The notes under the pieces are model-generated. The model saw only the letters and a program-made list of their open reading frames with translations. It was not told the DNA's origin and ran no database searches. A DNA stretch of 34,317 bases from positions 1 through 34,317 of IMG/VR virus record IMGVR_UViG_3300023284_001620. The stretch is one strand, 5' to 3'. The position numbers and the translations under genes are program-made. Positions 5,120-33,208 of this stretch are shown here, one piece after another; the stretch's first letter is position 1; every line of letters begins with the position of its first letter. The stretch comes from a virus.

Positions 5120-5361
5120 AACTCGCTTTCATCCGTCGGTAGTCTTTAAAGAGAAGACTCGCTTATACACTACGGGTGTCTCGTCCATGTTGGCTCGCTA
5201 ATCGGATACAGGGGTCTTCCGCATCTAGGCTCGCTTATTAATTGAGGGTGTCTCGGGGATATTGGCTCGCTTCAGACCTAAGGTTATCTTTCCTCTTGAG
5301 GCTCGCTTAACCGTAACGGATGTCTCCCCTTCATTGGCTCTTTATTTTGAAATTTGTCTCC
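5120..5361 (-). repeat. Short TIGR-type array (array 2), about 6-7 units
   Basis: On the plus strand the octamer GGCTCGCT (first copies AACTCGCT and GACTCGCT) recurs at 5120, 5156, 5192, 5228, 5264, 5300 and, degenerate, 5336: an exact 36-bp period. Half-way through each period lies the second repeat (GGTGTCT, GGTTATCT, GATGTCT variants). The two spacers per unit are 9-10 nt and differ from unit to unit. This is the same layout and the same repeat sequences as the large array at 19.4-20.5 kb, so it should use the same TasA-like protein. The last degenerate unit runs into the final codons of polA. Strand given as minus to match the flanking transcription; transcript direction is not proven. 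Confidence 0.85.
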
Positions 5362-8095
5362 AGTTACTTCCCGTTCGGCGGTCAATTTCAAACAGCAGGA
5401 AGTTTTTCACTTCCCTCTTAAATACTTCCAGTCCCAACTTTTCGACTTCGCTCACCAGTTCGTTCCGCACTATCAAAATCAGCTCGTCGTGCATTTGCAG
5501 TCCGATTCTCACGTCTTCAAAATCCCATTGCCGTCGAATAGCTTTCCACATTCTTACCTGCTGAATTTTAAATATCTCTGCCGCGGTTCCAGCATTATGA
5601 TGGTGCCACGCTGTTTTTGTTAGTTCGTGCAGTCGTCCTCCCCTTGCAGTTTTCAGTTCGGGCATTTCCCTCGTTCGACCAAAGTAAGTTGCTGTTGATC
5701 CTGATCGTTGGGCGTGCTTTATGTAGTTCTCCATATATTGGACTGCGACGGGTGCTCGACTCTTCCAAGCATTAATCAGTTTCGTCGCTTCGTCTGAGGC
5801 TATTCCTAATTTCTTCCCCAGGGTAAACGGTTGCATCATGTAAAGGATGGCAAAATTGATTGTTTTCCCCGACTTCCGATCGTCTGGTTCGTGTAAATCT
5901 ACATTTGGTACCGCTTCCTTCACCTCATTCCACATTTGTAGGTGAAAATCCTGGTCACTTTCAAACGCAGCGACCAGTGTCGGATCTTTTGACAGGCTCG
6001 CAAACACCACATATTCCGCCTGTCCCTGGTCAAACGACACCAACTTAAATCCATCCGGGGGTTCAATCGTCTCTCTTATTTCTACGATTCGATTCTGCAG
6101 GTTGGGTTTTTCGCAGGCGTAACGACCATGTGGTGTTCCTAGTTGGAGCCAGTTGCACTGTACTTCCCCTGCTTTCGCAAATGGTTCCCATTTCGTTAGT
6201 TGCGACACTTTTGATTGGGCTTCTCTTGCTTCTATCACCGTTCCGGCCAGCTTGTCTCCCATCGAGTGCAGCGCCTGCAGAGTTTCCTTGTCACAGGATG
6301 GCAGACCTGATTTCTTGTTCACTCTCTGAACTGGTAAGTCTCGTTCCTCGAAGAATATTCTCGCACAGTCAGCTGGTGAATTCGGTCTAAATGCCTGGTC
6401 GTTTGCCTCTGCCTTCGCTTCCCCGGTTAATCTTTCCAGTTCTTTGGTCGCAGTAGCCAGGTTCCCCGCCCAAGTTTGTTTATTTACTCTAAGTGGGGTT
6501 CGATTCATTTCTTCCGTCACCGGCTCGAGCTGGCGCTCTACTTTCAGGCTGTTTGAACCGAGCGGTAGGAAAACATCGAATTTAGGTATGCGGATCTCGT
6601 TCATCTCCTCTATTATACCATCCTGGTCAGAAATGTCAAGTCCTAAGATGTCTCTTTCCTTCTCCAAGGTTCGTATTCCGGAAACATCTGAGACCGTCCG
6701 CATTGATCCGTCGTTTCTCCTCACCCTCACTGAGAAGTCGTCCACTCGTTTAATTTCCCCCGCCCGCCAAAGTCCCTTCAGATCTCTAATTTCCACCAGC
6801 TGTCCAACCTGGTACACCGTCCGAAAAAAGGTCTCCTGTACAAACTCCTCTCCCGGATCTTCCTTCCCCTTTTGGGCTTCATGGTAGATCTTTGTCAAGT
6901 CCAAGTCCTCCAGAGAAATCTCTACCTGGTCTATCTCTCGTAAATTAGTGAATTGCAGGACTGCAGCAAAAAACTGGTTTCTCCGGTCCTCCCATTTCTC
7001 TTCCACCCGTACCTTCAGTTCTCTTGCTAGTTCCGCTACATTTTCCGCCCTCAACCATCGCGAATCTTTTCTTACAGCCCGCTCTGCCGCTACAATTTCT
7101 ACTCCTTTTAGTCTCTGTTCGTTGTAGAGTTTGATCCAGACTTTCGCCCTGTCCCCATCCTTTTGGAGAGCCTTTTCAACCACTTCTCTCTCTTCTTCGC
7201 TTTTTTGTCCCAATTGCAGTAGTAGGAAGTCGGGTAGTGTAAATTCTCTCGCAATTTCTGCGATCGGCTCAAGGTAGGATGGTAGTCTATAAGCATGTTC
7301 CCTCGTTATCAGTCTGCCTTCAGTTTCAATTTCCAGTATGTCTTCAGTCCTTTCTACTCTCATCGCGGGTGAATCTGTCTCCCGCGGCTTAATCGTCAGT
7401 ATTTCCAGCGCCGGCACGAACGCTAGGATTGCTGCAAATACCGTCGCTCCTCCTTCTACTATTGTGTATTCTTTTATTCCTGGATGCCTTACTGCCCTAA
7501 CTGTTTCTTTCTTTTCTCCCCTTAATACCGCTCTTAGTTGGCCTGCATCTAGGTCTGGTAGTACCAGTACCGCAAATAGTGGTACGGTCTCTTCTTTCCA
7601 GCTTTTATCTGAGATACTCTCCATCCCATCCCTTGGGTATTTTGCTCTTGCGTCGTCCAATCGTATTCTTCCTCCCTGAAAGGGAAGGAGCGTTAGCAGT
7701 CTTGTTATCGTCTCTTCTGCGAAGTGTCTCCCTGGTAGAGTTGGTGCCCCAAACTCCTCCCTCCTACTTAGATCCCTTAGTCGTTGGTTCCATTGGTCCT
7801 CCCTCTTATCGTTTAGTGTTTTTCTCAGTGCTCCGCTCTCCCCACTTTGGAATAGGAATACGGGCTCCGCTAGTGGGTTATCCTCGTTTGATTCCACTGC
7901 TTGCCCGTTTCCTGGTGCGTTTGTTCCTGCAATTGCGTCTTCCTCCCCTGGTTCTCCCGTATCATTCATCACCTCCAGAGCAATAAGCTCCATTCCGACT
8001 CCAAGGAGTCGGTTAAATTCTTCTGTGGCGGTTGCCTCGAATTCGTTTAGTATTTGAAAGGGAAGTCGCGATCTCGGAACACGCTGTCTCGGCAT
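5342..8095 (-). CDS. DNA polymerase, family A
   Basis: The 917-residue protein ends in a clear family A polymerase domain (about residues 600-917). It has GRYACEKPNLQN before motif A; motif A as VSFDQGQAEYVVF, with the catalytic Asp and conserved Gln and Glu of the usual DYSQIEL; motif B as DRKSGKTINFAILYM, with R, K and an aromatic finger residue; and motif C as GLQMHDELILIV, with the HDE catalytic residues. No proofreading-exonuclease motif was recognised in the long N-terminal part, which is divergent. It would replicate phage DNA. Placement between portal and head morphogenesis genes is unusual. AGGA lies upstream of the ATG. Array 2 begins at its stop codon. Confidence 0.93.
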   Translation of the reverse strand: MPRQRVPRSRLPFQILNEFEATATEEFNRLLGVGMELIALEVMNDTGEPGEEDAIAGTNAPGNGQAVESNEDNPLAEPVFLFQSGESGALRKTLNDKREDQWNQRLRDLSRREEFGAPTLPGRHFAEETITRLLTLLPFQGGRIRLDDARAKYPRDGMESISDKSWKEETVPLFAVLVLPDLDAGQLRAVLRGEKKETVRAVRHPGIKEYTIVEGGATVFAAILAFVPALEILTIKPRETDSPAMRVERTEDILEIETEGRLITREHAYRLPSYLEPIAEIAREFTLPDFLLLQLGQKSEEEREVVEKALQKDGDRAKVWIKLYNEQRLKGVEIVAAERAVRKDSRWLRAENVAELARELKVRVEEKWEDRRNQFFAAVLQFTNLREIDQVEISLEDLDLTKIYHEAQKGKEDPGEEFVQETFFRTVYQVGQLVEIRDLKGLWRAGEIKRVDDFSVRVRRNDGSMRTVSDVSGIRTLEKERDILGLDISDQDGIIEEMNEIRIPKFDVFLPLGSNSLKVERQLEPVTEEMNRTPLRVNKQTWAGNLATATKELERLTGEAKAEANDQAFRPNSPADCARIFFEERDLPVQRVNKKSGLPSCDKETLQALHSMGDKLAGTVIEAREAQSKVSQLTKWEPFAKAGEVQCNWLQLGTPHGRYACEKPNLQNRIVEIRETIEPPDGFKLVSFDQGQAEYVVFASLSKDPTLVAAFESDQDFHLQMWNEVKEAVPNVDLHEPDDRKSGKTINFAILYMMQPFTLGKKLGIASDEATKLINAWKSRAPVAVQYMENYIKHAQRSGSTATYFGRTREMPELKTARGGRLHELTKTAWHHHNAGTAAEIFKIQQVRMWKAIRRQWDFEDVRIGLQMHDELILIVRNELVSEVEKLGLEVFKREVKNFLLFEIDRRTGSNWRQISK

Positions 8096-8395: not shown

Positions 8396-9823
8396 CTAGT
8401 CGAAGGAGTCTTCAACGTCTACTTCTTCTGCAACGCCAGCTTCTTCAAAGTTTCCCAGTCCTTCGGCCTGTCTCATCCAGTTCTCGTTCAGTATAATATC
8501 CCCATTTTCCACTGGTGCCAGTCCTAGTTCCGCTCGCTGTTCGTTTATTGTCTTGAAATTTCTTACTTCACGTTCCCTGATTTCCGCGTCGGTTTTCCTG
8601 TCTTGGTTCATACCTACAAACTCTATCCTGTACCTCGGATCGATTCTGTCTATCACACAGAGGTTCAGCTGGTTCGCAAAGAAAGTCAGTAGGGGTTTCA
8701 GACCTTTTTCCTTTGAACTCTTCACCTTCGGCATTTGGCTTGATTCAAAGGTCGTCCGTGTTCCTGACGCTCCTATCTGCCAGTTTATCTCCGTTGGATC
8801 AATTTGGTACACCCCGCACGCTTGTTTCACCAAAAAGTCAAACAGTTGGGCATACTCCATATCCTTGTTCGACCTGTCCAGGGTCAACCAGTCTACATCT
8901 GCATCTTTCCCAATCTGCAGTACCGGGGGACGCCAGTATGAGGAGGCATTTCGGATTGCTTCCCTAAAGTCTCGCTTAAAACTGTCCACCTGAATATTAT
9001 CGGTTTGTCCTTTTATAACCAGTACGCCTTTTTGTGTCCCTCCTGCAGTTAGCTGGCCGGCGTTAAATTTCTCCGTGTTTAGAATCGTTGTCACCGTCCT
9101 AACCAACATTTCTAGTTCTGACATTCCGTACCCTGATAGACGAATATCCGTTTGCGGGTTTCTCACCCCAAACATCATTTGCTTGTCCAGGTATTCCGTT
9201 ACAATTCTTTCCTGCAAAATTTGTACGTAGTGAACCTCGTCCTCCTGTGGAGGAATAGCATGCTCGAGGGATGCCTTGGTTCTTCGAATTGTTGCCCCGT
9301 CCAGTCCTACCAAATACGCCGGTTCGTCGTTTCGTCGGTACACGATCTCTGCACAGGCCTGGTCCATCGTCAGAGAATCTCTCATGTACTTTCTGCTGAG
9401 TGTATCCAGCAGGGGTTCTCCGTATCCTGGTATTCCCGCCCTATAGATAAACTGACTTAGGTTCCTTGTCTCTTCTAAATTTTCCTCTGCCTCTGGATCT
9501 TGTGAGACAATTTTGTACCCAAAGTCGTAGGTTGATTCTTGCGGCACCATAAATGACGCAATTTGGGACAGTCGGGTTTGCACTATCGACCCTATAATTG
9601 GGTTCGACGACATCGCCCTCAGTTCATGAAAACTTAGCGCCGTTGACGTTTTGTTCAACCAGGCTCTTCCTACAAAGAGCGACAGCGGGTCGTAAAAAGT
9701 AGATTCTGGAGAAGCAGCCCTCTCCTTCGCATCCCTTAGAGCTTTCTCGATTGTCTGCTCTACTATCGCTGCCCCAAAGGAGTCCCCGATAATATGCCGT
9801 ACTCTCTGACTCATGCTCGGCAT
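8396..9823 (-). CDS. Portal protein
   Basis: The 475-residue protein lies directly downstream of the large terminase (one small gene between), the standard place for the portal. Segments fit the HK97/SPP1-type portal family: an N-terminal helical region; SNPIIGSIVQTRLSQIASF; the central LSGYGMSELEMLVRTVTT; the strand GVLVIKG; and the stem or crown region QACGVYQIDPTEINWQIG, followed by LKPLLTFFANQLN. The portal is the dodecameric ring through which DNA is packaged. The C-terminus is acidic. AAGGAAG lies seven bases upstream of the ATG. Confidence 0.88.
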   Translation of the reverse strand: MPSMSQRVRHIIGDSFGAAIVEQTIEKALRDAKERAASPESTFYDPLSLFVGRAWLNKTSTALSFHELRAMSSNPIIGSIVQTRLSQIASFMVPQESTYDFGYKIVSQDPEAEENLEETRNLSQFIYRAGIPGYGEPLLDTLSRKYMRDSLTMDQACAEIVYRRNDEPAYLVGLDGATIRRTKASLEHAIPPQEDEVHYVQILQERIVTEYLDKQMMFGVRNPQTDIRLSGYGMSELEMLVRTVTTILNTEKFNAGQLTAGGTQKGVLVIKGQTDNIQVDSFKRDFREAIRNASSYWRPPVLQIGKDADVDWLTLDRSNKDMEYAQLFDFLVKQACGVYQIDPTEINWQIGASGTRTTFESSQMPKVKSSKEKGLKPLLTFFANQLNLCVIDRIDPRYRIEFVGMNQDRKTDAEIREREVRNFKTINEQRAELGLAPVENGDIILNENWMRQAEGLGNFEEAGVAEEVDVEDSFD

Positions 9824-9835
9824 TTCATTTCTTCC

Positions 9836-10018
9836 TTATTCTTTACAGAGTTCTGGGGTGCATGGAACTAATATCGAGTTTACCCCTCGCAAGAACAAAC
9901 AAGCTCCACATACCATCGTTCCTCGATAAGTCATTGGCTGTGGGTATTCGCAATCCCTTGGACAATGTCCGTGGACAACTTTATGAGCTTTACGCCATCG
10001 TTGGTAGTGTCCTCTCAC
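9836..10018 (-). CDS. Small Cys-rich protein between terminase and portal
   Basis: A 60-residue protein read from a GTG at 10018 with an AGGTGATGG site. Cys residues form a possible zinc site: HCPRDCEYPQP, VCGACLF and a C-terminal CTPELC. It is basic at the N-terminus. It lies 18 bases after the terminase stop. Function unknown; metal binding is an inference from Cys spacing. Confidence 0.5.
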   Translation of the reverse strand: MRGHYQRWRKAHKVVHGHCPRDCEYPQPMTYRGTMVCGACLFLRGVNSILVPCTPELCKE

Positions 10019-10036
10019 CCATCACCTATTTAGTGT

Positions 10037-11524
10037 CTAGTCCCAAGAAACTTGGAATCTACTTGTTTTCGACGCGCAAAGCGCGTGCCACATTGCCATC
10101 ACTACATCGTCGTGAAAGCTCTCGTTCCCTATTCGTCCTTTCCTTTGCACCACCCCGTTAAATTCCGTTACCATCTGGTCTGTTTGTGCTTGGTCGAACG
10201 ATGTTTTGTACGGGAATCTCCACCTCCCGTTCTCGAATTGTGGTCGAAACGACAGTAACCCGTGTTCCATCGAGTTCTTTCCCGAGTGGGTCACTGTATT
10301 TCCTGACAGTGGTAAAGTTGTCTTATTTGCGAAGTGCTCCCTATAAATTCCCTGAAATAAGTTGTCCTCCAAACAGCCTGTCGTTACCTTATATAACTGG
10401 CAGAATAATTCTATCTGATGTAGTTGCTCTTGCAGCGTGTCGGGCCTCTTCCTCCAGAACGCCAGTGGCGTGAAAAGCTGTAGGTCCTCGTCAAATTCCA
10501 CCACGTACACCACCGTCCAGTCCCCATCCGATGAACCTGGCACTGAAAAGTCCACTCCCATGTAGACCGGTTTGTCCCCCGTATAGGATTGCACATATGA
10601 GAGGTTTTTGTCCTTCAGCGGCTCGAATAGTGACGGTGGAAAAATCGTTGTTTCGTCTGAGAGCGGTTCGTTCTGGTATTCCTTCGCAAAGAAGAGTGGG
10701 GTCATCGCCGCTCTTCTCTTTATTAGGTCCTGGTAAGAGTACCTCTCTGGCCAGAGTACTTCTTCCTCCTCCTCGTCTATAATTGCTTGTAGTTTCTCTC
10801 CATTAAACACGTCGTTCTTTTGCAGGTCGTGGTAAAGATCATCTACTGCCTGCGCGGTCCCCACCACTACAATTTGTGAGGTAAACCCTCTTTGCCTCGC
10901 TTTTAGCGTTCCCTTATCCGCCAAAGGAAACACCACTTCCCAAAAATATTTCTTGATCGCCGCTCTTGCTTCTGCCGTCTGAGAGTTCTTCTCATTCAGC
11001 ACGTCATCCAGTATTACCAGCTGGGGATGTCTCCCTCGAAGAGGGGAGCCTATTCCCTTTACCCTAATTACCTTCCGATTTGTCAGTCGTACTTCAGTTC
11101 TTGAGAAGAAGTCTTGCCGGTTCGCCGGAATTAAGTAGTTAAGGGAGGGGTTCTCCGCCAGACACCCCTTGATTTTATCTAAGTTTTCCACTGCTGAGGG
11201 TTGGTCTGCACCTAAAATAAGCACTTCCTTACACCATGGATCGTACTTTGTTTTCCACAGGGCATAGGCCTGCACCAAGGACATGCTTTTTCCGTGATCC
11301 CTTGGCGCCATTTCACAGACATTTAGGTTCTCTTTTAGTCTGCTCCACCACTTCCTGTGATGGGGTCCAATCTCCATCCCCAATTCTACCTTCTGGAAAA
11401 CCAAGAAGTCCACTCGACACAGGTCTGCGATTGCACTCCTAAGCACCGGAGCTCCCAGTCTTAAGAGGGCTTCGTTTCCCGTTGGGGCATTAGTTGATAG
11501 TTCTATCGTTGGGGTCAGTGTCAC
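10037..11524 (-). CDS. Terminase large subunit (DNA-packaging ATPase/nuclease)
   Basis: At 495 residues it has the usual length. The N-terminal ATPase shows a Walker A-like motif, MAPRDHGKSMSLVQ, and Walker B, PQLVILDDVLN. The C-terminal RNase H-like nuclease shows MGVDFSVPGSSDGDW (first Asp), TGCLEDNLFQG (middle acidic residues) and FHDDVVMAMWHA (last Asp pair). It powers DNA translocation through the portal and cuts the concatemer. Its start overlaps the end of the probable small terminase by 35 bases. No insertion or frameshift is seen. Confidence 0.95.
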   Translation of the reverse strand: MTLTPTIELSTNAPTGNEALLRLGAPVLRSAIADLCRVDFLVFQKVELGMEIGPHHRKWWSRLKENLNVCEMAPRDHGKSMSLVQAYALWKTKYDPWCKEVLILGADQPSAVENLDKIKGCLAENPSLNYLIPANRQDFFSRTEVRLTNRKVIRVKGIGSPLRGRHPQLVILDDVLNEKNSQTAEARAAIKKYFWEVVFPLADKGTLKARQRGFTSQIVVVGTAQAVDDLYHDLQKNDVFNGEKLQAIIDEEEEEVLWPERYSYQDLIKRRAAMTPLFFAKEYQNEPLSDETTIFPPSLFEPLKDKNLSYVQSYTGDKPVYMGVDFSVPGSSDGDWTVVYVVEFDEDLQLFTPLAFWRKRPDTLQEQLHQIELFCQLYKVTTGCLEDNLFQGIYREHFANKTTLPLSGNTVTHSGKNSMEHGLLSFRPQFENGRWRFPYKTSFDQAQTDQMVTEFNGVVQRKGRIGNESFHDDVVMAMWHALCASKTSRFQVSWD

Positions 11525-16486: not shown

Positions 16487-16783
16487 CTATCTTCCTGGGA
16501 AACCCGCTGAATTTATCTCCCCACTAATTGCTCCACCTGTATAGGCCGAAACTCTTAGCCTCACTCGCATTGCTGTTGAGGCAACAAAATCACTTTCTGC
16601 CTCTGCAGTTTCAGTGGCTAAAATCCTATACGAGGCACCTCCATCATACGATCTTTCTAATGCCACTGTTCCGACAAACGACGACGTATCAAACAGAGAA
16701 AACGCGTATCTTTCGTACGCGAATAGTGTTACCTCCGGTGTCACATCGTTTAGGGCCCCTAAAATTGCACTCTCTTTCGACAT
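16487..16783 (-). CDS. Probable small virion structural protein
   Basis: 98 residues, beta-rich: FVGTVALERSYDGGASYRIL followed by TAMRVRLRVSAYTGGAISGE. This resembles beta-sandwich phage proteins that carry the pattern 'GTvtLerSfDgGatw'. No cysteines. Its ATG overlaps the stop of the membrane-protein gene (TAATG). Role inferred from this pattern; no specific family is claimed. Confidence 0.5.
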   Translation of the reverse strand: MSKESAILGALNDVTPEVTLFAYERYAFSLFDTSSFVGTVALERSYDGGASYRILATETAEAESDFVASTAMRVRLRVSAYTGGAISGEINSAGFPGR

Positions 16784-17133
16784 TATTTCTTCTCTTTCGT
16801 TAGACTATTTAGTCGTTGGTCGATAATTGTGATCGAGTCCCTTGCCCGATCCAATTCCCTTCTTGCAGAACTCGAAGCAGGTTTTGCCCTCAGTTCCCTC
16901 TCTGATTGCTGCTCAATTTGCCTCCAATAATTCCTCTCCAACCGCAATACGTCTGCTTTTGTTTGTTGCTGTTGTTCGGCTATGCGAACACCCTCTGCCT
17001 TTGCCAGCCAGGGTGGTGGGTCTAAATCAAAGAAGGCAGCCCCTGCAAAAAGAACTCCTATAATCGCTACTGCAGAAACTGGTACCGCCGCCTTTCTAAA
17101 CTTCGTCTTTTCCGTCGGGGTCACCAACTTCAT
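16783..17133 (-). CDS. Membrane-anchored coiled-coil protein (possible i-spanin)
   Basis: 116 residues: basic N-terminus, one membrane span (about residues 17-36, VPVSAVAIIGVLFAGAAFF), then a long Gln/Arg/Glu-rich coiled coil (VRIAEQQQQTKADVLRLERN to the end). This is the topology of Rz-type inner-membrane spanins, but no lysin, holin or o-spanin is adjacent, so the role is open. Overlaps the upstream gene by 38 bases; AAAGGAA precedes the ATG. Confidence 0.5.
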   Translation of the reverse strand: MKLVTPTEKTKFRKAAVPVSAVAIIGVLFAGAAFFDLDPPPWLAKAEGVRIAEQQQQTKADVLRLERNYWRQIEQQSERELRAKPASSSARRELDRARDSITIIDQRLNSLTKEKK

Positions 17134-19296: not shown

Positions 19297-19323
19297 TGTC
19301 CTGATCCTTTCCTGTCCATATAA

Positions 19324-19351
19324 GATAATACCGCCTTTCAGCGGTATTATC
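19324..19351 (-). terminator. Strong hairpin at the downstream end of TIGR array 1
   Basis: GATAATACCGC pairs perfectly with GCGGTATTATC (11 bp, 6-base loop). It lies between the array and the AAA+ gene. There is no U-run, so it may be a processing or stabilising hairpin for the array transcript rather than a true terminator. Confidence 0.5.
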
Positions 19352-19365
19352 CATCTTCCTGTTAA

Positions 19366-20530
19366 GTACGCTTGCCATCTTCGGTTGTCTTACTACACAA
19401 GGCTCGCTCGCCTTCGTCGGGTATCTTTCTACGCATGGCTCGCTTTTTGTTGTCGGGTGACTAGCAGATTGAGGCTCACTTGCGATCGTCTGGTGTCTGT
19501 TATGGATAGACTCGCTTTTATCGTAGGGTGTATACCAAAAGAGGCTCGCTCTGACCTGAGGTTATCTTACTTCTTAGGCTCGCTATTAACTCTAGATTGT
19601 CTTGTGACGGTCGGCTCGCTATTAACTCTAGATTGTCTTGTGACGGTCGGCTCGCTTCTGAACCCAGGTTGTCTAATGAGCTACGGCTCGCTTCTAGATT
19701 TCGGATGTCTTCATCGCTTTGGCTCGCTTGTGAGGTTGTCTTGGAGCACAAGGCTCGCTTCCTGTCAACGGGTGTCTAATAGCGCTCGGCTCGCTTAGGA
19801 GAACAGGGTATCTTGGTGCGTCTAGGCTCGCTTGAATTCTTCGGTTGGAGAGACTCGCTCTGCATCGAAGATTATTTTACAAAGTAAGGCTCGCTCTGAC
19901 CTGAGGTTATCTTGCATCATTAGACTCGCTTTTTATCGTAGGGTGACTACACCGTAACGGCTCGCTTGCGTCGACGGGTGTCTTCATCGTTTTGGCTCGC
20001 TTGCTGTCTTGGGATGTATTAATCGTTTTGGCTCGCTCGGGGCGTTCGGTTGTCTTAGAATGATAGACTCGCTTGTCAACAAAGGGTGTCTCCCCATTTA
20101 AGGCTCGCTTCTTGTCAACGGATGTCTTGTAACGCTCGGCTCGCTCAGTGGGAAAAGTTGTCTTCCCATTTTAGGCTCGCTCGTAGGTCTTGGTTGTCTC
20201 ATTCATGATGGCTCGCTCGGGAAAAAGGTTGTCTTCAATCACAGGCTCGCTTGCGTCGACGGGTGTCTAAAACTGGCGGCTCGCTTATCGTTCAAGGGTG
20301 CCTTTTGACGTGAGACTTGCTGTTAACCATAGGTTGTCTCGTGGACTAAGGCTCGCTTTTAACCATAGGATGGCTTATATCGTTCGGCTCGCTTCAAGTG
20401 CACGGGTGTCTTACGTATTTAGGCTCGCTTATCGGTCGAGGATATCTTTTCCTTATTGGCACTCTTCTCCCTTTCGGGTGTATCTCACTTTTTTGGCTCG
20501 CTTCACTTGTGGGGTTGACTTTTAGTCCTC
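19366..20530 (-). repeat. Large TIGR-type array (array 1), about 33 units of 36 bp
   Basis: On the plus strand GGCTCGCT (or a 1-2 base variant) starts at 19401, 19437, 19473, 19509, 19543, 19577, 19613 and so on to 20495: 32 clear copies plus a degenerate one at 19366, mostly 36 bp apart (a few 34, 35 or 37; single short units of 31 and 27). Between successive copies lies a second conserved octamer, GGTTGTCT/GGGTGTCT. Each unit is therefore repeat 1, spacer A (about 9-10), repeat 2, spacer B (about 9-10), and the spacers vary. This is the described design of TIGR arrays, which give ~36-nt dual-guide tigRNAs for Tas proteins, and not CRISPR. Strand is set to match the TasA-like gene; transcript direction is unproven. 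Confidence 0.88.
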
Positions 20531-20547
20531 GACTAGTATCCATTCAA
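20519..20547 (-). promoter_or_regulatory. Weak candidate promoter at the head of array 1
   Basis: On the minus strand TTGAAT, 17 bases, TAAAAG: 4 of 6 matches at each hexamer. It lies right where the array begins, and the T-run after the tRNA-like RNA overlaps it. It may be chance. Confidence 0.22.
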
Positions 20548-20551
20548 AAAA

Positions 20552-20748
20552 TGGCGGGCGTGGCAGGGGTCGAACCTGCTTCGGCGACGGTACGGTTGCT
20601 CCCGTCGCTCTGCATGGGTTGGAGCGGCAACGCCCGACCCCCACACTGTCGTCCCGGCCCAGAGGTCGTCTCGTTCCAGTAAGCAGTCATCAGGTTGCCC
20701 TCTGCTGTAACCAAAACGCCGTTTCTCTATCCAGTACGCCCATAATTT
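20552..20748 (-). ncRNA. Structured RNA with tRNA-like 3' domain (copy 1)
   Basis: It begins straight after the TasA-like stop with AAATTATGGGCG. The last 84 bases (20552-20635) fold like a tRNA: an acceptor helix pairing GGGCGT with ACGCCC (plus one terminal mismatch), a T arm GCAGG-TTCGACC-CCTGC with canonical loop, an anticodon-position stem GCGACGG/CCGTCGC, and a 3' GCCA followed by six T. The anticodon-position loop is 11 bases (GAGCAACCGTA) rather than 7, so it is not a normal tRNA. A second copy at 33010-33208 has the same layout, the same loop and covarying stems. Function unknown; its place between the TasA-like gene and its array is suggestive. Confidence 0.6.
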
Positions 20749-21660
20749 CTATGCTGCTCGTTCCTCCCTGTGCACGATTTCCAGTTTTGCTTCCGCGTAT
20801 GTCGGCATGACCATCAAGTTTTCCATCGGCCGCCACTGGTTATACAGGTCGCAAAGGAACATCTTCATCATGTACCGAATTGCTTGCCGGTGGCGCCGTG
20901 CTTTTGACGCCCGCCTTTCCACTTCGGTGTACTTTCCGTCGTTTTTCTTTCCCCACGTCGCGTGGTTTTCCATCCGGAGCTTGTAATCGTCGTAGTACTT
21001 CCGGTATCGTTCGTTCCCCGATCGGAGGAATGATACCCCAAGCACCCCAAGCAGTTTCGTCCGCAGAAACGGGTTGTACGTGATCGCCTTCTTGGTTTTC
21101 TGCGTCCCGTCTGCCGCTGTGTACTCTCGGTCTACCAGGTGTTCCTTCCGCTTCGACCGGCCCATGCCGTCGTCAGCCACATCCAGCCCTGCGTAAGCCC
21201 ATAGGGACGACGGGTATCGTGCTTTGTGAATGTCAAACTCTGACAATATTACCGCCGCCATTGTCGGCCCGATCCCTTTCACATCCTTCAGCCAGTTGTC
21301 CCAGATCGGAATTCCCGCCAGTTCCTGCTCCAGCGAACCGAAGTGGGTATCCTCGATTTCGTGCAGCGACCGGTATTGCCGGATCAACGTTAGTTCCGTC
21401 ATTGACGATATCAATCGCATTCCTTTGAATGGCGTCGTCCCCGATTTCTTGATCATCGCGTCCGTCACCTGTTCAAATTCCTTCGTAATTTCGTCCAGAA
21501 TTGACTTCGCTTCCGCGTCCGTCATTTCTTCTTGGGTTTGGTTTGGTTGCTGCCCCACCTTGGCCCGAAAATTCATTGCCAGTCGGTTGCCGACGGCAAT
21601 CCGCAGGCTTTGAATATCATAGGTTCCCCGAACCAGTGCCCGTAAATTTTCTTTCCTCAT
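20749..21660 (-). CDS. tasA: TasA-like protein (nuclease-less TIGR-associated, Nop/IS110 C-terminal-like)
   Basis: Read from the ATG at 21660 (AGGAG eight bases upstream; the longer reading to 21780 is unsupported) the protein has 303 residues. Its core IWDNWLKDVKGIGPTMAAVI with SEFDIHKARYPSSLWAYAGL is the helix-hairpin-helix and following segment of the IS110/IS116 transposase C-terminal domain, which is related to the Nop domain of box C/D snoRNP proteins. The usual N-terminal DEDD/RuvC domain of IS110 is absent and there is no HNH or RuvC. The C-terminus is basic and rich in Tyr and Arg (RRASKARRHRQAIRYMMKM), fit for RNA binding. With the array beside it this matches TasA, the nuclease-free member of the TIGR-Tas family, which binds tigRNA and would target DNA without cutting it. 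Confidence 0.8.
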   Translation of the reverse strand: MRKENLRALVRGTYDIQSLRIAVGNRLAMNFRAKVGQQPNQTQEEMTDAEAKSILDEITKEFEQVTDAMIKKSGTTPFKGMRLISSMTELTLIRQYRSLHEIEDTHFGSLEQELAGIPIWDNWLKDVKGIGPTMAAVILSEFDIHKARYPSSLWAYAGLDVADDGMGRSKRKEHLVDREYTAADGTQKTKKAITYNPFLRTKLLGVLGVSFLRSGNERYRKYYDDYKLRMENHATWGKKNDGKYTEVERRASKARRHRQAIRYMMKMFLCDLYNQWRPMENLMVMPTYAEAKLEIVHREERAA

Positions 21661-21719: not shown

Positions 21720-22451
21720 TCAGGTTTTTCTCCCGTACTTCTTTCGGTCTTCGATCTTTGCCGCCTTTTCCTTCGCCCACGTCATGACGTTAAATCGACG
21801 GTAAAAGACCTCCCGTCCAAAAATTCTATGCGGTGGCATGTCACCCTTCTTCCTCCACGCGTGCAGCGTCGACGGGGCGAGTCCAACCAGTTTCGCCGTT
21901 TCCTGGTTCGAGATATACGCCTTACCCGGTCGGATTGTAGAATGAACTCCCATAGGAGACTTTCCTATCTCCGTTCGAGGATGGTCGGGTTGTTTGTGCA
22001 TCAGATTACGCACTTTATCGACCTTCACACGTGTTTGCTTAGCCAAGGGCACCTTCTTCGGCAGCTTTGGCAGTTTGGTCTTAAACGCCATTCTTTTCCA
22101 CGCCCGCACTTCCGCCTCAGCATAGACATATCGTCGACCGTTGTATTCTGATTTCGGACCTAGTCCGTCGGATCGCATCTTCGCCAGGGTTGAGTGGCCA
22201 ATACCAAGGAATTTTGCTGCGTCCCTCGTCCCCCAAAAATGCCCTTTTCCTGCGGATCGTTTTACTTTCTTTGGGGGTTTCATGTCCACCCCTGCTCCAT
22301 TCCGTAGGAAACCCACGAAATCGGTGCACAATTGTATCGCCTCGGGCGCCGTCAGTACCACCAACGGACCCACCGGTCCTGATTGGGTCAAAAACTTTAG
22401 CGCCTCCTCGTTCAGGACGTTTCTCTGTTCGTTCGTCAAGGGTTCCGTCAT
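21720..22451 (-). CDS. DNA-binding protein with two excisionase/MerR-like HTH domains
   Basis: 243 residues with two similar winged-HTH units: FWGTRDAAKFLGIGHSTLAK (about residue 90), followed by a wing with YNGRRYVYAEAEVRAW, and YISNQETAKLVGLAPSTLHA (about residue 180), followed by IFGREVFYRRFNVMTW. Each resembles the HTH_17 / excisionase type. A basic Lys/Pro linker joins them. It sits directly upstream of the TasA-like gene, with an AGGAG site, and may be co-transcribed. It could regulate the locus or be a phage recombination directionality-type factor; there is no integrase in the window to support the latter. Confidence 0.6.
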   Translation of the reverse strand: MTEPLTNEQRNVLNEEALKFLTQSGPVGPLVVLTAPEAIQLCTDFVGFLRNGAGVDMKPPKKVKRSAGKGHFWGTRDAAKFLGIGHSTLAKMRSDGLGPKSEYNGRRYVYAEAEVRAWKRMAFKTKLPKLPKKVPLAKQTRVKVDKVRNLMHKQPDHPRTEIGKSPMGVHSTIRPGKAYISNQETAKLVGLAPSTLHAWRKKGDMPPHRIFGREVFYRRFNVMTWAKEKAAKIEDRKKYGRKT

Positions 22452-33009: not shown

Positions 33010-33208
33010 TGGCGGACGTGGTGGGGGTTGCACCCACTTCTGCATTGGTACGGTTGCTCCCAATGCTCTACGTAAAGTGTGGTGGTAACACCCGGCTTCA
33101 CGTTATCATCCCGGCTAGAGATCGTCCCGCCTCAGTAGGCTGGCGCGGTTACCCGCCGCGTAACCAAAACGCCGTTTCTCTTTCCAGTACGCCCATAATT
33201 TCATACCG
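33010..33208 (-). ncRNA. Structured RNA with tRNA-like 3' domain (copy 2)
   Basis: It follows the RNase H stop (TGACGGTATGAAATTATGGGCG). The terminal 84 bases (33010-33093), the same length as copy 1, form an acceptor-like helix GGGTGT with ACGTCC (one GU and one GT swap), a T arm GTGGG-TGCAACC-CCCAC, a stem GCATTGG/CCAATGC with the same 11-base loop GAGCAACCGTA, and 3' GCCA. Stem bases differ from copy 1 but pairing is kept, so selection on structure is clear. Function unknown. Confidence 0.62.

Follow-up and report, generated by a model that had tools for sequence, protein, structure and literature searches.

In the TIGR-TasA systems described by Faure et al. (2025, PMC12045711), such as FpTIGR of Flavonifractor plautii, a solo Nop protein lies beside a phage-borne, dual-repeat array of usually 5-15 units of 36 nt, with edge and loop repeats of 8-12 nt, 9-nt spacers, and truncated terminal edges (TIGR, tandem interspaced guide). 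For the related TasR and TasH, a 36-nt tigRNA, a Tas dimer, two-strand pairing, and a strong DNA bend have been reported, while genuine TIGR spacer targets have been hard to identify and the role of the nuclease-free TasA is unclear (PMC12045711). Here, we analyze a TIGR-TasA locus in IMG/VR virus record IMGVR_UViG_3300023284_001620 (34,317 bp; hereafter, the window is this whole stretch), which carries genes for terminase, portal, major capsid, DNA polymerase A, and a sigma factor, and which may be a genome fragment. The original prediction, made from the letters of the window, had placed a TIGR array in a phage genome, rightly on both counts, but did not give the strand and missed both the Tas gene and the second array. 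This kind of system is already known; what is new is the Tas gene, the second array, the dynamics of the arrays, and a set of testable natural targets. We think it likely that this is a phage TIGR-TasA system with two arrays, whose guides are aimed at the core genes of other phages and serve nuclease-free interference between phages.

The main array (Table 1) comprises 33 units of about 36 nt, as had been predicted, each consisting of the edge repeat AGCGAGCC, a 9-nt spacer A, the loop repeat AGACAACC, and a 9-nt spacer B. Its existence is confirmed far above chance, with 29 occurrences of the edge in the window, compared to 0.62 +/- 0.90 in dinucleotide shuffles, and 21 edge-N10-loop composites, compared to 0.00. 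The array starts with a 5'-truncated edge (AGTC, 20531-20534) and ends with a 3'-truncated edge (AGCG, 19369-19372), so that the predicted limits of 19366-20530 were right in place but not in their exact ends. Similarly, the two predicted octamers are real but were given as reverse complements, the array being on the minus strand, and the predicted 9-10-base spacers resolve into a 9-nt spacer and a tenth base that belongs to box C, since the stretch between repeats is usually 10 nt. Two of the 33 units depart from the regular form: the one at 19859 is 27 nt long, and the one at 19759 has a spacer B of 5 nt. The edge is nearly invariant, and the loop is looser (position 6 is A in 15, C in 13, and T in 5). 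The third box-C base, which nearly all relatives keep as A, is mostly T or G in both repeats of the window phage, and the residues with which TasA reads it may have changed as well. The regular spacing of about 36 bp is what a CRISPR array or a plain minisatellite would also show, yet the alternation of two 8-nt repeats, the variable spacers of 9 nt, the lack of any repeat of CRISPR length (25-36 nt, with spacers of similar size), as had been predicted, and non-identical units that turn over in sibling loci render either exceedingly improbable.

The protein encoded upstream of the array is, by sequence and predicted fold, a TasA-type Tas protein. Its start was set at the inner ATG that aligns with relatives, with the open frame reaching a GTG at 21780. 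Searches of the PDB with phmmer found TasH at 2.9e-8 and the TasR structure 9mty at 7e-8, and a profile of 18 relatives found TasR 9mty at 4.9e-25 and TasH 21kl at 1.9e-19. In the AlphaFold model (predicted local distance difference test score, 80; predicted template modeling score, 0.74), the N terminus is all-helical, with a long coiled coil that begins at residue 2. The model contains no nuclease domain, and Pfam gave no nuclease family. With this model, TasH/TasR complexes took all of the top ten Foldseek places; the IS110 enzyme ISCro4 came next (E = 5e-3), and Nop5 appeared with non-significant E-values only. Because of the TasR/TasH homology, the fold, and the missing nuclease domain, we label the protein TasA, following Faure et al. 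(2025, PMC12045711), and the membership of the window system in TIGR-TasA is near certain. It shares a homologous Nop domain and fold with TIGR-TasR (9mty) and TasH (21kl, 9w02-9w04, 9vzx, and 9w26) but has neither their RuvC nor their HNH nuclease, so that binding without cutting would be expected. An IS110-family transposase beside an accidental tandem repeat would account for the Pfam match to Transposase_20 (3.6e-6) and for the PHROGs name "transposase", and IS110/bridge RNA transposases do resemble the window system in the Transposase_20/Nop-like domain and in pairing guide segments to opposite strands. However, no DEDD catalytic domain occurs in Pfam or in the TasA model, an array takes the place of a single bridge RNA, and the E-values of TasH and TasR are better than that of IS110 by over three orders of magnitude. 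Further, ordered dual-repeat arrays lie beside most homologues, which excludes a transposase of this kind, leaving it a negligible probability. Hence, the CRISPR, minisatellite, and IS110 explanations are ruled out by anatomy and homology.

TasA homologues were found in 25 viral contigs, one contig of a Hydrogenedentota metagenome-assembled genome (31-54% identity), and the cultured Microcystis phage Mvi-JY20, in which a "hypothetical protein" gives a TasR match at 1.4e-25. Most of the 27 related loci have dual-repeat arrays, with the edge A[AG]CGNG[CT]CA and the loop AGNNNNCCA, although the spacers differ; to the repeat patterns used, L012, L018, L022, and L024 have no array. In Mvi-JY20, the edge reads TGCGAGCC and the loop ACGAAACCC. 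The Candidatus Hydrogenedentota contig (L028, JADLCA010000695.1) encodes TasA and a nine-unit array, and may be either a prophage or a phage contig that was binned into the assembly. The prediction of a TIGR array is thus supported not only by its anatomy and by the adjacent Tas gene on the same strand, but also by related repeats at most homologous loci. The window deviates from the usual TIGR-TasA in its 33 units, in a box-C third base that is mostly not A, and in a second array that lies 14 kb from tasA, after polA. The first edge of this second array, right at the polA stop codon, is truncated on its 5' side (GAGCC), and its last edge is degenerate. Extra arrays kilobases from tas also occur in other TIGR phages (L004, L014, and L026); in L014, separate arrays occupy 9207-11410 and 16609-16977 of one contig, and in L004, 12888-13080 and 17587-18341.

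Among nine sibling loci (L005-L011, L020, and L021), the tas genes and flanks differ little (L007 and L008 are 97% identical over 5.2 kb), but the arrays are only partly common, with eight units in common for L007/L008 and zero to three for most other sibling pairs. In L007, L008, and L011, the units proximal to the terminator are common and those proximal to tasA are different, a pattern from which L010 departs. In the window, two blocks of loop plus spacer B recur in units with a different spacer A, one unit is duplicated exactly in tandem, and near-identical spacers number nine pairs, compared to 0.06 by chance. Array turnover therefore includes half-unit exchange, given the recurring blocks and the excess of near-identical spacers. 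The original prediction had named identical units and random spacers in relatives as what would speak against it; instead, units differ, and guide families track the codons of the candidate targets considered below.

Candidate targets were sought in the two-strand geometry of TasR, as spacer A followed by the reverse complement of spacer B, with the order derived from the TasR cut rule and its 8-nt 3' overhangs (PMC12045711). Of the candidate natural matches sought in this geometry, two are exact (18/18 at gap 0). In the sibling arrays, the guide family TMGWGGTCA/TAGTTCGYT has variants in eight of nine, which differ by the synonymous Arg codons AGA, CGA, and CGT, with a single variant carrying AGT (Ser). 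The pattern derived solely from these guides, TMGWGGTCATAGTTCGYT, has only two matches in 2.9 million viral contigs, and both fall, over 18/18 bases and in frame, on the same site of the same gene, LRGHSSL of a primase-helicase (AAA_25, 4.9e-36); the candidate target 18-mer, from L029, is TAGAGGTCATAGTTCGCT. RGHSS is encoded at this site in 80/80 fetched helicase homologues, in many codon variants, and it lies within GLRGHSSLLG, the longest invariant stretch of a domain in which only 9 of 286 five-residue windows are invariant. One of the matching contigs comes from metagenome 3300021961, and the arrays L005 and L020/L021 come from 3300021960 and 3300021962, adjacent numbers that we assume to represent one sampling campaign. 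Among the other sibling guides, nothing outside the RGHSS family matched near the helicase homologues (1 Mb).

In the window itself, two guides point, independently of each other, to the terminase large subunit of another group of phages. First, the guide of the unit at 20145 matches L031 in frame (FYKRYILSMWV; candidate target 18-mer, AGCGTTACATCTTGTCAA), and the base flanking each 9-mer is unmatched, which supports 9-nt spacers plus an unpaired box-C base. It differs from the guide of its sister unit at 19795 in four positions, which amount, in one frame, to three synonymous changes and an I/F exchange, RY[IF]LS; no exact target was found for the sister guide. A 16-fold degenerate pattern spanning the AGCGTTACA and AGCGCTATT guides matched 13 contigs, of which 12 were rejected, as neither guide was exact and most were out of frame. 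Second, the guide of the unit at 20251 finds its site in the L125 terminase at the conserved motif NDV[IL][ND]G[IL]R (here, NDVIDGIR). This terminase, 61% identical to that of L031, was fetched by protein similarity alone, with no guide used, and only four further contigs with terminase relatives were found. In five terminase genes not selected by guides, 0/812 re-paired guides reached two or fewer mismatches at gap 0; by extrapolation from this re-paired distribution, we estimate that 29 guides would give such a terminase match by chance a few times in a thousand. A third guide family, CGGGATGAA (RDES[LF]N), has two matches, one of them in frame in a tail-tube-like gene (Phage_tube_2, just below the cut-off). 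Taken together, these sequence matches make the helicase and terminase genes, and perhaps the tail-tube-like gene, probable natural targets, of a kind that Faure et al. (PMC12045711) describe as hard to identify.

Several observations weigh against targets in phage genes. The other match of the RDES[LF]N family lies in an unrelated protein and in another frame. At this collection size, chance matches occur at about one per single 18-mer, so that match counts alone prove nothing and the weight falls on frame, gene, and sample. A codon-signature test across all variant guides gave P = 0.02 (P = 0.06 for the synonymous count), a weak result that leaves the two spacer orders undistinguished. Targets in the flanks of TIGR-bearing loci equaled the re-paired control, the second-array guides had no target above chance in 2 Mb of DNA examined, and most guides had none in the DNA examined. 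Finally, Faure et al. (PMC12045711) observed that TasR in E. coli stopped neither plasmid conjugation nor phage plaquing. The many unmatched guides, together with the ease with which lone exact 18-mers arise by chance in large collections, would be expected if the system targeted the DNA of hosts or plasmids and its matches to phage genes were coincidental. We consider this unlikely, given that the matched core genes are hit in the frames that the guides predict, that two window guides lead to the same gene family, that the helicase site is invariant, and that one match stems from a metagenome numbered beside those of the arrays.

The system could alternatively act on the life cycle of its own phage, with guides directed at its own genome or at the attachment site in the host; it would then be a regulator or would help an integrase by bending DNA. 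DNA bending in aid of integrase was proposed for TasA by Faure et al. (PMC12045711), and the upstream neighbor of tasA is an HTH_17/excisionase-like protein. However, no window guide has adjacent halves with two or fewer mismatches in the window, except for one 8+8 guide at gap 2, and single 9-mer matches number 16, compared to a shuffled expectation of 16.8. Likewise, the sibling guides have no match with two or fewer mismatches in the three longest sibling contigs. Convincing self-targets are thus absent, with no self-matches beyond expectation in the window or in these contigs. There is also no integrase among the open reading frames tested, in a record that may be a fragment and with host sites outside the data. 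An action on its own life cycle, accordingly, appears quite improbable.

Returning to interference between phages, the following can be proposed for expression, binding, and biological effect, which we infer, in addition to the anatomy, homology, fold, array turnover, and exact matches observed here. The arrays would be transcribed leftwards and, judging from Faure et al. (2025, PMC12045711), processed to tigRNAs of about 36 nt that load a TasA dimer, with spacer A pairing to one strand and spacer B to the other across a contiguous 18-bp DNA site. TasA may then bind, unwind, and bend its target, thereby blocking transcription or replication; because it has no nuclease, the likely effect would be binding rather than cutting. 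The likely targets would be the replicative primase-helicase, the terminase large subunit, and perhaps the tail tube of other phages, and with guides that most likely point to other phages and not to their own genome, the system would be a means for phages to compete with one another. Through unit duplication, half-unit reassortment, and guide replacement, the arrays could come to hold guide sets that track the codon variants of one motif. Such variants would broaden the range of rivals, and the aim at conserved residues would limit escape. That natural TIGR-TasA guides in fact form a nuclease-free weapon of phage against phage, directed at the codons of conserved core-gene motifs, with variants covering the codon alternatives and with half-unit renewal, is a proposition to which we give even chances. 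Faure et al. drew a parallel, no more than an analogy, with nuclease-free, guide-directed interference between mobile elements that relies on unrelated proteins and arrays. If true, the candidate 18-bp targets would rank among the first natural ones proposed for TIGR guides, and exact, testable 18-bp candidates, together with the sibling arrays and the cultured Mvi-JY20, open the purpose of TIGR to a direct test.

Table 1. Positions of the TIGR-TasA features and neighboring elements (window coordinates, except for the last row)
Feature	Position	Strand	Basis or remark
Main TIGR array	19369..20534	-	repeat chain, position profiles, shuffle controls
tasA, Nop-domain protein (303 aa)	20749..21660	-	upstream of main array, same strand
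Unit with guide AGCGTTACA/TCTTGTCAA	20110..20145	-	18/18 in L031 terminase large-subunit gene, peptide RYILS
Sister unit with guide AGCGCTATT/TCCTGTCAA	19760..19795	-	would encode RYFLS, same frame
Unit with guide GTGATTGA/CGGGAAAA (8+8 nt)	20218..20251	-	15/16 in L125 terminase, in frame
Unit duplicated exactly in tandem (GACCGTCACA/TAGAGTTAAT)	19585..19656	-	
Second TIGR array of six units, with the repeats and strand of the main array	5120..5343	-	repeat and composite scans
HTH_17/MerR-type DNA-binding protein, excisionase/regulator-like, not ParB	21720..22451	-	upstream of tasA
13-bp hairpin, candidate transcription terminator	19323..19352	-	directly 3' of main array
Unannotated TasA and TIGR array in Mvi-JY20 (L003, PP438412.1)	5725-6450 and 6462-6780		

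The hairpin that follows the main array has a folding energy of -18.9 kcal/mol (z = -4.2), and none of 200 shuffles was equally stable; its tail, UUAUAU, is not a clean U run, and a scan for consensus terminators did not list it. An Rfam search of the window returned no family, and ARAGORN called no tRNA. Two tRNA-like elements with GGAGCAACCGTACC in common lie on the minus strand, at 20552-20640 and about 33010-33060; both, uncalled by ARAGORN or Rfam, have a 3' half that resembles a T arm plus acceptor and ends in GCCA, and the first, situated between tasA and the main array, has an enlarged anticodon loop.
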